From: a bacterium
GTDB lineage: Bacteria > Hinthialibacterota > Hinthialibacteria > Hinthialibacterales > Hinthialibacteraceae
DNA: 64,000 nt
Direction: 5' to 3'
Assembly (NCBI GenBank): GCA_016125385.1
Contig: WGLV01000011.1
Span: 124,001-188,000 of the forward strand
The notes below the pieces were generated by a model. It searched no databases. It was not told the DNA's origin and was given only the letters and a program-made list of their open reading frames with translations. The translations under genes were made by a program, and so were the position numbers. This document shows positions 16,764 through 21,029 of the stretch, in pieces; positions within the stretch are counted from its first letter, which is position 1; every line of letters begins with the position of its first letter.

Positions 16764-16786
16764 GCGATCGTCTCTTGTGTATGACG

Positions 16787-16823
16787 AAACGCTCCGCTGG
16801 ATTCACCCGGCGGGGCGTTTTTT
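16787..16823 (+). terminator. Rho-independent terminator of the pnt operon
   Basis: A 14-bp stem (two G-T wobbles) from 16787-16800 pairs with 16807-16820 around a 6-base loop, followed by six Ts. It begins 23 bases after the pntB stop. The arms are AAACGCTCCGCTGG and CCGGCGGGGCGTTT. Confidence 0.9.
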
Positions 16824-16945
16824 ATTATGACGCTCATGTGTAAGAAATCTGAAAACAGTTACGACGAATCAAACAGGTTTATCATCGCGGGATGGAATAC
16901 GATACAATAATTCAAACGGAGCGAATTTTTCGATCGGGAGCCAGA

Positions 16946-17911
16946 ATGAATTCATTTGACGCGAAAGTCATGGAAATCGCCGGCGAGCCCCTGCACGGCG
17001 ACGGCATCTCCACCTTTCAGGTGAACGTGGGCCTGAAATGCAACCTGGCCTGTCTGCATTGCCACGTGAAATCCTCACCGCGCCGCAAGGAAATGATGAC
17101 GTGGGAAACGATGCGTCTGGTGATCGGCGCCGCCCGGCGCTCCGGCGCCAGATTAGTCGATATCACCGGCGGCGCGCCTGAAATGCACCCCCGTCTGCGT
17201 GACTTCATCGTTGAATTGCGCGGGCATGGTTTCGACGTCATGGTGCGCACCAATCTGACCATCCTGCTGGAAGAAGGCTACGATGATTTCCCCGCGTTTT
17301 TCCGCGCGCACCAGGTAAAACTGGTCGCCTCCATGCCCTGTTATCTGAAGGAAAACGTTGACGGTCAACGCGGCGCCGGCGTGTATGACGCCAGCGTGGA
17401 AGCGCTGCGCCATCTCAATAAAGAAGGCTATGGCGTCGATGAAGCGTTGCCGCTCGATCTGGTTTACAACCCCGGCGGGCCCAGCCTGCCCCCCGCGCAA
17501 CAGGCGCTTGAGGCCGATTACCAGCGTGAACTGAATAACCGATTCGGGATCTTTTTTACCCGTCTGCTTACCATTACCAATATGCCGATCGGCCGTTTTC
17601 AGATGGACCTGAGAAAACAGGGGCGGGACGGCGAATACATGGACCGGCTGACCGGCGCGTTCAATCCATCCACGCTGGATGGCCTGATGTGCCGCCGCCA
17701 GGTCAACGTTGATTGGGACGGGGTGATCTATGATTGCGACTTCAACCTCGCATTACGCCTGCCGGTCGATCATGGCGCGCCCTGTCATATTCGCGATTTT
17801 GATCCCGCTGCGCTGGCGCGCCGCAGAATCGTCACCGGGAGGCATTGTTTCGGTTGTACCGCCGGCGCCGGATCATCGTGTGGCGGAGCGCTGATCAAGC
17901 CCGGCGACTGA
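16946..17911 (+). CDS. arsS: ArsS-like radical SAM protein with Cys-rich DUF3641 tail
   Basis: A 321-residue protein. The start at 16946 follows GGGAGCC; the frame could extend to 16892 but without a ribosome site. Residues about 25-40 contain the radical SAM cluster motif CNLACLHCH, followed by DITGGAPEMHP, the GGxP-like SAM-binding strand. The C-terminal domain carries CRRQVNVDWDGVIYDCDFN and CFGCTAGAGSSCGGAL. This architecture is that of ArsS, the radical SAM enzyme implicated in arsenosugar synthesis; some relatives carry selenocysteine in the Cys-rich tail, but here all those positions read as cysteine. No ArsM methyltransferase is adjacent. It heads a four-gene unit with DUF547, TVP38 and flavoprotein genes. 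The family is clear; the arsenic role is inferred. Confidence 0.8.
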   Translation: MNSFDAKVMEIAGEPLHGDGISTFQVNVGLKCNLACLHCHVKSSPRRKEMMTWETMRLVIGAARRSGARLVDITGGAPEMHPRLRDFIVELRGHGFDVMVRTNLTILLEEGYDDFPAFFRAHQVKLVASMPCYLKENVDGQRGAGVYDASVEALRHLNKEGYGVDEALPLDLVYNPGGPSLPPAQQALEADYQRELNNRFGIFFTRLLTITNMPIGRFQMDLRKQGRDGEYMDRLTGAFNPSTLDGLMCRRQVNVDWDGVIYDCDFNLALRLPVDHGAPCHIRDFDPAALARRRIVTGRHCFGCTAGAGSSCGGALIKPGD

Positions 17912-17942
17912 TCGATTTTTTATCTCATTTCAGGAGTGTTGA

Positions 17943-18779
17943 ATGAAACTGAATTTGACGCCGATTCTGTATGGAGCCGCGATTCTTCTCATGGCGGCGA
18001 CGGTGAGCGCGGAGGAAAGTTCTCCGTCATTTTCGTATCGGCCCTACGCGCGCGTACTCGAACGTTTCGTTGACGATCACGGGCTGGTCGACTATGCGGC
18101 GCTCGCCAAAGACCCCGCCGATCTCGATGCGTTTCTGAAAGACGTGGCCGATCTGAAAAAGAAAACTTTCGACGCCGTGGCCGAAAAAGACCGGATCGCA
18201 TTCTGGATCAACGTGTATAACGCGTACACGTTGAAGACGGTGGTGAAACATTACCCCATCAAATCGACGCTGGTGGGTGGATTGATTCACCCCGGCGGCA
18301 GTATCCGCCAGATTTCCGGCGTGTGGGACAAACTCAAACATTCCGTCATGGGAAGAGAAATGACGCTCGACCAGATCGAACATGGAACCCTGCGCGCCGA
18401 ATATCACGAGCCGCGCATCCACTTCGCCATCAACTGCGCCAGCATGGGGTGTCCCAAACTGTTCGCGAAGCCGTACGTTGGAGATGAACTCGATCGCCAG
18501 CTTGACGAGCAGGTTCGCCGCTTTCTTCACACTCCCGAACAGTTCCAGTTCGATCGTGAGAACCGCACGCTGTCACTTTCCATGCTGCTCAAGTGGTACG
18601 CCGGCGATTTCGCCTCGTCTACTGATACCGGCCACTTTGATTACCTCGACGATCAGACGCGCGGCGTAATGAATTTTTTGTATCCTTACCTGAATGATGA
18701 ACAACAGGCCTTTCTGAAAAGCGTCCATGTGAAGGTCCGGTATCTCGATTATGACTGGTCGTTGAACGAACAATCATGA
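17943..18779 (+). CDS. Exported DUF547 protein
   Basis: A 278-residue protein with a signal peptide (MKLNLTPILYGAAILLMAATVSA). CAGGAGTG precedes the ATG. The DUF547 core is evident: DRIAFWINVYNAYTLKTVVKHYP, IRQISGVWDKLKHSVMG, MTLDQIEHGTLR, and FAINCASMGCPKL, whose two cysteines are conserved in the family. DUF547 has no established reaction; the His, Asn and Cys residues in these motifs suggest an enzyme or a thiol/metal-binding role in the periplasm. It lies 31 bases after the ArsS-like gene and overlaps the TVP38 gene by ATGA, which implies coupled translation and a shared function. Confidence 0.88.
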   Translation: MKLNLTPILYGAAILLMAATVSAEESSPSFSYRPYARVLERFVDDHGLVDYAALAKDPADLDAFLKDVADLKKKTFDAVAEKDRIAFWINVYNAYTLKTVVKHYPIKSTLVGGLIHPGGSIRQISGVWDKLKHSVMGREMTLDQIEHGTLRAEYHEPRIHFAINCASMGCPKLFAKPYVGDELDRQLDEQVRRFLHTPEQFQFDRENRTLSLSMLLKWYAGDFASSTDTGHFDYLDDQTRGVMNFLYPYLNDEQQAFLKSVHVKVRYLDYDWSLNEQS

Positions 18780-19486
18780 GTATTGAAAAGGGCCGCGCCG
18801 GGTTGATCAAACCGGTTCTGTTGATCGCCGGCGTCATCAGCCTGTTACTGCTGGCGCGGTTCAGCGGCGCGGGCGCCTGGCTAAGCGGTTTTCAGGATCG
18901 CATCCAGTCGCTGGGCCCGCTCGCCCCGGCGGCGTTCGTCGCGCTGTACGTCATCGCAACCGTCGCTTGCGTTCCCGGTACGGTGTTGACGCTGATGGCG
19001 GGAGCGTTGTTCGGCGCGGTGTGGGGCGTGGTCTGGGTCAGCGTGGGCTCGACGCTGGGCGCCGCAGCCTGTTTTTTAATCGCACGATACGCCGCGCGCG
19101 ATTCGGTCCACCGCTGGCTGGAGACCAATGATAAATTCGCCGCGCTGGACCGCATCACAGAGCGGGAGGGCGCCGTGATGGTGATCATTACGCGGCTTGT
19201 CCCCTTGTTTCCATTTAACCTGCTCAATTACGGTTTCGGCCTGACGCGCGTTTCGTTCGCGCCGTATCTCGGCTGGTCGTGGCTCTGTATGCTGCCCGGT
19301 ACGGTGATGTACGTCGCGGGCGCCGATGCGCTGACGCGTGGGCTTGCCGAAGGGCGGGCGCCCTGGCCGCTGATCGTGGTGATCGCGGCGCTGTTCGTGA
19401 TTCTGATGTATATCGGCGTCAGGGCGCGGCGCTATCTTATGTCTCGTGCGGCGGATTCCGCCGAGATCGATCCCCTATCCATGTGA
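18776..19486 (+). CDS. TVP38/TMEM64 (DedA-like) membrane protein
   Basis: A 236-residue inner-membrane protein with about six hydrophobic segments. CVPGTVLTLMAGALFGAVWGVVWVSVGSTLGA is the family core (SNARE-associated/VTT domain), and RLVPLFPFNLLNYGFGLTRVSFAPY is the second conserved block. VTT proteins are transporters or lipid scramblases of the DedA superfamily; several are encoded next to mercuric-reductase-like genes. Coupled to the DUF547 gene by ATGA and followed 16 bases later by the flavoprotein gene. Confidence 0.9.
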   Translation: MSIEKGRAGLIKPVLLIAGVISLLLLARFSGAGAWLSGFQDRIQSLGPLAPAAFVALYVIATVACVPGTVLTLMAGALFGAVWGVVWVSVGSTLGAAACFLIARYAARDSVHRWLETNDKFAALDRITEREGAVMVIITRLVPLFPFNLLNYGFGLTRVSFAPYLGWSWLCMLPGTVMYVAGADALTRGLAEGRAPWPLIVVIAALFVILMYIGVRARRYLMSRAADSAEIDPLSM

Positions 19487-19502
19487 TAAGAGAGGCGCCG
19501 GC

Positions 19503-21029
19503 GTGAATCTGAATCGCATCAACCCTCCCGATGATGAATACAACCGGCGCTGGCTCGGCGAGACCCGCCCGCCCGGCTGGGTGAATCCCGCGCCCGCGCC
19601 GCGTTATAACCTCGTGGTGATCGGCGCCGGCACGGCGGGGCTGGTTACGGCGGCGGCCGCCGCAGGGTTGGGCGCCAAGGTTGCGCTGGTCGAAAAGAAC
19701 CTCATGGGGGGCGATTGCCTCAACGTGGGGTGCGTACCTTCCAAGACGCTGCTTCATGAGGCCCACACCGCCTCGCTCATCCGTGAAGCATTTCGATTAT
19801 CCCGCGCCGAGGGCGATCCGCCGCAAGCCGATTTCGCTGAAGTGATGCGCAGGGTTCGCCGGGTGCGCGCTGAAATCAGCCCCCATGATTCCGCGCGCCG
19901 TTTTCGTGAATTGGGCGTCGACGTATTTTTCGGTGAAGCCTCGTTCAGCGGGCCCGATCGCGTCCGCACCGGCGAAGTGGAACTGTGTTTCCGTAAGGCG
20001 GTGATCGCGACCGGCGCGCGCGCGTTCGTCCCAGATATCGAAGGGCTGGATCAGACTGGTTATCTGACCAACGAAACCGTTTTCAACTTGACTGAACCGC
20101 CCGCTCGCCTGCTGATCGCGGGCGGCGGCCCCATCGGCTGCGAACTGGCGCAGGCGTTTCAACGCCTGGGTTCGAGCGTAACGCTGGTGGAATCTGGCGA
20201 CCGGTTATTGCCGCGTGATGATGCAGACGCCGCGCGGGCCGTGATGGACGCCCTGATGCACGATGGCGTCGATTTACGATGCCGGGCCGCTCTTCAGCGC
20301 GTCGGAATTTCCGACGGCCAATCAGTCGCTGAAATATTGGGTGACGGGGTTATCGATCGGCTCCAGTTCGACAGGCTGCTGCTGGCTGTGGGCAGGCGGC
20401 CCAATATTGAAGGGCTCAATCTGGAGCCGATGGGAATCGAAACCAATTCGCGCGGCGTCGTCGTCGACGAAACGCTGCGCACCACCAACCCTCGCGTCTA
20501 TGCGGCGGGCGACGTCTGCCTGCCGTATCAGTTCACTCACACCGCCGATTTTTGCGCGCGGCTGGTGATTCGTAACGCGTTGTTTTCGTTTTTGCCGATC
20601 AGGGCGCGCTGGACGGATTGGGTCATCCCCTGGTGTACCTACACCAGCCCTGAAGCCGCGCATGCCGGTCTGAACGAAGATGAAGCCCGCCGCCGGTCTA
20701 TCGAGTTCGACGTGTACAGGAGGGATTTCGCCGAGGTCGACCGCGCGCGCACCGAAGGCGACGTACGGGGGTTCGTGAAGATTCTGACCCGCAAGGGAAG
20801 CGATCGCATCATCGGCGCGTCGATCGTCTCGCCCCACGCCGGCGATATGATCGGCGAGATCGCGCTGGCGATGACGAATCGCATTGGCCTTGGCGCGCTC
20901 TCCTCCGTGATTCATCCTTATCCGACTCGCGCGGAGGCCATTCGTCAATGCGCCGACGCGTACAACAGAACCCGCCTCACTCCCTCGAAAAAGAAACTCC
21001 TCACACGCATCTGGAAATGGATGCGATAG
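19503..21029 (+). CDS. Mercuric-reductase-like FAD/NAD(P)-disulfide oxidoreductase
   Basis: A 508-residue flavoprotein. The GTG at 19503 is taken as the start: AGAGGCG precedes it, and the frame upstream overlaps the TVP38 gene. The FAD-binding GAGTAGLVTAAAAAG lies near residue 42, the redox-active disulfide is GGDCLNVGCVPSK near residue 75, the NAD(P) fold is IAGGGPIGCELAQAF, and the dimer-interface active-site motif is IHPYPTRAEA. There is no N-terminal HMA metal-binding domain and no C-terminal CC pair as in true MerA, so it probably does not reduce mercury. An N-terminal extension of about 35 residues precedes the FAD fold. Likely a disulfide reductase working with the upstream ArsS/DUF547/TVP38 set. 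Confidence 0.85.
   Translation: MNLNRINPPDDEYNRRWLGETRPPGWVNPAPAPRYNLVVIGAGTAGLVTAAAAAGLGAKVALVEKNLMGGDCLNVGCVPSKTLLHEAHTASLIREAFRLSRAEGDPPQADFAEVMRRVRRVRAEISPHDSARRFRELGVDVFFGEASFSGPDRVRTGEVELCFRKAVIATGARAFVPDIEGLDQTGYLTNETVFNLTEPPARLLIAGGGPIGCELAQAFQRLGSSVTLVESGDRLLPRDDADAARAVMDALMHDGVDLRCRAALQRVGISDGQSVAEILGDGVIDRLQFDRLLLAVGRRPNIEGLNLEPMGIETNSRGVVVDETLRTTNPRVYAAGDVCLPYQFTHTADFCARLVIRNALFSFLPIRARWTDWVIPWCTYTSPEAAHAGLNEDEARRRSIEFDVYRRDFAEVDRARTEGDVRGFVKILTRKGSDRIIGASIVSPHAGDMIGEIALAMTNRIGLGALSSVIHPYPTRAEAIRQCADAYNRTRLTPSKKKLLTRIWKWMR

Follow-up and report, generated by a model that had tools for sequence, protein, structure and literature searches.

One of the described systems closest to the locus reported here is the ArsM-ArsS route of arsenosugar biosynthesis, in which the radical S-adenosylmethionine (SAM) enzyme ArsS adenosylates arsenic on the way to oxo-arsenosugars (Cheng et al. 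2021, cited in PMC12159101). The locus lies in a 64,000-nucleotide stretch of a Hinthialibacterota genome (assembly GCA_016125385.1, contig WGLV01000011.1, positions 124,001 to 188,000), which we call the window, and consists of a gene for a predicted ArsS followed by genes for an exported DUF547 protein, a TVP38/TMEM64-type membrane protein and a flavoprotein. ArsM, ArsS and two glycosyltransferase families, TIGR04282 and TIGR04283, are already known, and we know of no account that goes past ArsM and ArsS to the completion and transport of arsenosugars or arsenolipids. The window unit shares with that system an ArsS of the same equivalog family, and many of the related loci also share its ArsM and glycosyltransferases, but the unit itself has neither ArsM (as a preliminary description of this DNA had correctly stated) nor glycosyltransferases adjoining, and adds the other three families. 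We think it likely that this is an arsenosugar (organoarsenical)-type operon with an accessory module of thiol-redox, membrane and envelope functions; what each partner does biochemically, which way transport runs and what the end product is are what we infer. Direct support exists for the families, the operon structure, the recurrent co-localisation, the co-occurrence with ArsS, ArsM and TIGR04283, and the intact active-site motifs.

Judged from its sequence, the radical SAM protein of the window is a member of the ArsS family, with a score of 416.3 bits against TIGR04167 (curated equivalog cut-off 300) and of 177 bits against PF12345 (DUF3641). The preliminary description had called it ArsS-like with a Cys-rich tail, and this agrees with the alignment: the tail reads HCFGCTAGAGSSC, and the CX3CX2C motif and five more cysteines (C17, C21, C24, C234, C249, C286, C289 and C297 in alignment numbering) are invariant across 24 homologues. 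The predicted structure, with a predicted local distance difference test (pLDDT) score of 91.5, has its best PDB matches among SPASM/twitch radical SAM enzymes, SkfB and EpeE being examples. A tree of 109 rows, from which the biochemically studied ArsS is absent, places the window protein inside the 104 ArsS rows, set apart from five long-branched outgroup rows with a Shimodaira-Hasegawa-like approximate likelihood ratio (SH-aLRT) of 89, and not outside the ArsS clade, the outcome that had been named as refuting the proposed unit.

The surroundings of ArsS were compared at 105 loci from whole genomes and named GTDB genomes, annotated with profiles built for this analysis, where same-strand genes no more than 6.5 kb away count as neighbours; the named GTDB genomes were picked by similarity to the window ArsS, and the counts are not global frequencies. 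The flavoprotein was found near ArsS at 21 loci, TVP38 at 21, both at 17 of the 105, DUF547 at 15 and all three at 9, so the concern that the four families would rarely neighbour each other was not upheld. The bearers span several phyla and include Planctomycetota, Poribacteria and Gammaproteobacteria; one of the ArsS-TVP38-flavoprotein loci (L114) belongs to the culturable Neptunomonas marina. ArsM lies immediately upstream of ArsS in some of these loci, with the orders ArsM-ArsS-DUF547-TVP38-flavoprotein (L040), ArsM-ArsS-TVP38-DUF547-flavoprotein (L060) and ArsM-ArsS-TVP38-flavoprotein (L062). On the ArsS tree the window protein falls in a set of 25 rows in which DUF547, TVP38 and the flavoprotein are the dominant partners; in a second large set an AhpD-like gene takes their place. 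The presence of the flavoprotein switches 12 times on this tree, and therefore its link with ArsS is recurrent, having been made or lost repeatedly, and is not one inherited event.

The loci with an AhpD-like gene resemble the window in pairing ArsS with a small redox-type partner. They differ in that none of the 26 (L041, L066 and L118 among them) also has the flavoprotein, where 5.2 would be expected (p 0.0015), although independent-pair counts on the tree lend no support to mutual exclusion, the AhpD loci forming one part of it. It is suggested, as a lead only, that AhpD and the flavoprotein are alternative redox partners that replace each other. Other arrangements were also seen among the compared loci. 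ArsS is fused to an ArsM-like methyltransferase in a protein of 661 amino acids (L046:7819-9801), phosphate ATP-binding cassette transporter (Pst) genes stand beside ArsS in four loci (L034, L064, L078 and L096), which would fit arsenate/phosphate handling, and DUF3179 proteins recur beside ArsM/ArsS or TVP38-flavoprotein pairs (L034:9482-10591, L058:6850-7926 and L146:604-1689).

A less biased view comes from 145 genomes, mostly one per family, in which ArsS was called at its cut-off and the flavoprotein at E<=1e-90, and where the counts are of genomes and not of independent evolutionary events. ArsS was present in 23 and the flavoprotein in 24; the two occurred together in 13 genomes, where 3.8 would be expected (p 1e-6, and p 1e-5 without the window's class), and in 10 of these 13 they lay within 6.5 kb of each other. 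An ArsM-like gene was present in 19/23 ArsS genomes (p 2e-5), and DUF547 of the window type in 16 of them against 4.8 expected. TIGR04283 accompanied the flavoprotein in 20 of its 24 genomes (4.8 expected). The most telling number is from the flavoprotein genomes that lack ArsS, of which 9/11 have TIGR04283, now named by NCBI as a glycosyltransferase of arsenosugar biosynthesis, where 1.2 would be expected (p 3e-9); an ArsM-like gene is present in 8/11. Ties to arsenic also appear at loci of other composition. In G093 (L185:2932-5613), DUF547 heads an operon that lacks ArsS and continues, after 21 bases, with ArsM and, after 18 more, with an aquaglyceroporin gene. G042 (L147:6781-9315) encodes an 844-amino-acid fusion of a radical SAM/SPASM domain with an ArsM-like methyltransferase, flanked by DUF547 and the flavoprotein, with a similar arrangement in G081 (contig C39). 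This fusion is a possible alternative enzyme for forming the C-As bond.

The families given earlier for the next two proteins, DUF547 and TVP38/TMEM64, stand, as both exceed the gathering scores of their Pfam families (PF04784, 91 bits against 27; PF09335, the VTT domain, 98.9 bits against 33.9). The DUF547 protein, whose signal-peptide-like start was read from the sequence, conserves a YNA motif, H160, C165, C170-P171 and W/D residues. Its fold is predicted with confidence (pLDDT 90) and had no PDB match at E<=0.001, nor did a sequence search against solved structures find one. A survey of the DedA superfamily, some members of which are lipid scramblases or flippases, describes COG0398 proteins fused to pyridine-nucleotide-disulfide flavoprotein domains (PMC10127716). 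That survey ties the fusions to aerobic metabolism and not to arsenic. In the window the same two domains are encoded by neighbouring genes, as part of an ArsS operon that also includes DUF547. Our search of the open-access literature found no text tying DUF547 or TVP38 to ArsS, no combination of DUF547 and TVP38 with a radical SAM protein, no functional study of a bacterial DUF547 protein, and only a passing mention of DUF3641.

The fourth protein scores 718 bits against NF004991, 'FAD-containing oxidoreductase' (cut-off 620), and 373 bits against the mercuric reductase (MerA) model TIGR02053, which is under the cut-off of 454. It keeps the redox disulfide (GGDCLNVGC, CxxxxC), and its C-terminal HPYPTRAE aligns with HPHPTLSE of a lipoamide dehydrogenase, which supplies a His-Glu pair, whereas MerA has PYLTMVE and no His. 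Neither an N-terminal NmerA domain nor a C-terminal Cys pair was found in its sequence, in keeping with its earlier description as mercuric-reductase-like without mercury-binding Cys pairs. A membrane protein adjoining a MerA-fold flavoprotein recalls MerT/MerA, but TVP38 and MerT are different membrane families, and mercury resistance was rejected on the sub-threshold MerA score and the missing mercury ligands. From its motifs, the protein should be a disulfide reductase and not a mercury enzyme.

The gaps between the four genes (Table 1), 31, -4 (a 4-base overlap) and 16 bases, reproduce to the base those of the four-gene unit claimed in the preliminary description. A transhydrogenase unit ending in pntB lies upstream. 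Because the terminator-like hairpin closes that unit and a promoter-like site precedes arsS, the four genes are probably a single transcription unit of their own. The promoter-like site stands 37 bases 5' of the arsS ATG at 16946, and chance alone predicts about 2 sites of this quality (9/12) in the region. A GGAG ribosome site is found about 5 nucleotides before this ATG, which was preferred to a longer start at ATG 16892 that overlaps the promoter-like site. G001 (L035) and G003 (L036), which represent two further genera of the family, have the genes in the same order and likewise behind pnt genes.

Table 1. Features of the ArsS locus; positions are those of the window.
Feature	Position	Strand	Description
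arsS	16946..17911	+	ArsS-family radical SAM protein (predicted), C-terminal DUF3641, 321 aa; ATG start
DUF547 protein	17943..18779	+	278 aa, signal-peptide-like N-terminus
TVP38/TMEM64-type membrane protein	18776..19486	+	DedA superfamily, VTT domain, 236 aa
Class I pyridine-nucleotide-disulfide flavoprotein	19503..21029	+	508 aa, GTG start; not mercuric reductase
Terminator-like hairpin	16786..16821	+	pntB/arsS intergenic; 15-pair stem, T-rich tail
Sigma-70-like promoter	16879..16908	+	weak consensus match, TTATCA-18-TACAAT, 9/12

If the operon acts on arsenic, ArsM would have to be supplied from elsewhere. The question whether arsM occurs elsewhere in this genome has a divided answer, as an ArsM gene is present on a separate contig, C11, but that contig is compositionally foreign. 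Its tetranucleotide profile has a mean correlation of 0.41-0.48, compared with 0.73-0.76 for typical contigs, and because of this difference C11 is taken to be either mobile or wrongly binned. C11 (G000; L034, L138 and L139) is 29.9 kb long; one end carries ArsM, PstSCAB, a second ArsS downstream of ArsM and the start of a DUF547 gene, inside which the contig ends, and the other begins inside a second flavoprotein gene, of which the tail is present, and carries TIGR04282/TIGR04283 and a fatty acid hydroxylase. Closing it end to end would give the order ArsM-PstSCAB-ArsS-DUF547-[TVP38 missing]-flavoprotein...TIGR04282/3-fatty acid hydroxylase, and the contig may come from a circular element (about 31.5 kb) or have been mis-binned. 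No second TVP38 was found in the window assembly, where the window copy stands alone. TIGR04282 is over its cut-off on both C11 and C76. A helix-turn-helix (HTH)-methyltransferase of 327 amino acids on contig C49 (L158:4663-5646) was rejected as a candidate ArsM: its HTH is of the ArsR type, it has one Cys, and it adjoins SAM-cycle-like genes similar to metK/ahcY. An orthologue is present in G001 (L159), and matches of similar length in G004 and G005. ArsM is present in the relatives G001, G003, G005 and G012, and because G001 and G003, which have the same operon in the same place, encode a canonical ArsM elsewhere in their genomes, within or next to ars genes, it is plausible that ArsM acts in trans on the window operon.

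We propose that ArsS would add a 5'-deoxyadenosyl group to methylated As(III) from such an ArsM. The flavoprotein, using NAD(P)H, may keep a dithiol partner or the thiol carrier of the arsenical reduced, and arsenic would thereby stay trivalent and thiol-bound for ArsS. TVP38 could carry the product, or a lipid-linked form of it, across the inner membrane, where the exported DUF547 protein would receive or modify it in the periplasm. The more specific proposal that the missing late steps of bacterial arsenosugar metabolism fall to DUF547, TVP38 and the NF004991 flavoprotein, as a membrane system coupled to a disulfide reductase that brings an arsenosugar, or a lipid form of it, into the periplasm for DUF547 to finish or anchor, is a speculative one, to which we give a rather low probability.

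Several observations weigh against an arsenosugar operon. The only over-cut-off ArsM of the window genome lies on C11, possibly mis-binned, and none lies on contigs of native composition; TIGR04283 passes its cut-off in the window's family on C11 only, the matches in G001 and G003 being sub-threshold; the 'arsenosugar' in the names of TIGR04282 and TIGR04283 is an NCBI inference and not proof; and TVP38-flavoprotein pairs also exist without ArsS alongside (G018 and G046, fused; G108, G111 and G096). These last pairs, together with the link of the COG0398 fusions to aerobic metabolism, are what would be seen if TVP38 and the flavoprotein were a general membrane-redox module, serving envelope or lipid redox homeostasis near ArsS and not acting on arsenic. 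We consider this unlikely, as the flavoprotein genomes without ArsS mostly have ArsM and TIGR04283, far above expectation, and as the flavoprotein lies near ArsS in 10 of the 13 genomes that have the two, much more often than random placement would give. Still less probable, in our view, is a shift of the window ArsS to a selenium, tellurium or thiol compound in a chromosome proper without ArsM, which would agree with the confinement of the over-cut-off ArsM to C11 and with the second ArsS downstream of it there. The window ArsS retains its invariant residues, the operon of G001 and G003 coexists with a canonical ArsM, and selD is absent from the window genome (best match 47 bits, cut-off 125), which makes selenophosphate chemistry unlikely. 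Selenium was rejected as the preferred reading on this absence and on the lack of any in-frame UGA in the compared ArsS regions. The choice between arsenic, selenium and thiol compounds that the preliminary description left thus narrows in part, with arsenic favoured by the upstream ArsM of L040, L060 and L062 and by the DUF547-ArsM-aquaglyceroporin cluster of L185, and selenium weakened.

A narrower version of the arsenosugar reading is that TVP38 flips an arsenosugar phospholipid and that the operon builds arsenic membrane lipids, not soluble sugars for export. The scrambling or flipping of lipids by some DedA-superfamily members (PMC10127716) and the occurrence of arsenolipids in cyanobacteria (a reference cited in PMC12159101) are consistent with it. 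So is the recurrence near ArsS, in 11 of the 105 loci and in 5 of these with the flavoprotein, of a gene of the fatty acid hydroxylase family (PF04116) whose product bears a weak similarity to the ornithine lipid hydroxylase OlsE. The window operon, in contrast, has no acyltransferase, phospholipid gene or hydroxylase, and we hold this version to be possible but doubtful.

An arsenosugar-type operon with an accessory module is thus the reading that we prefer. It offers DUF547, TVP38 and the flavoprotein as three concrete families that are candidates for the missing steps in making or moving arsenic sugars, and it would for the first time place one branch of TVP38 and the bacterial members of DUF547, which is an uncharacterised family, in a biological setting. 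The recurrence of these partners suggests that arsenosugar chemistry may be spread over many uncultured phyla.

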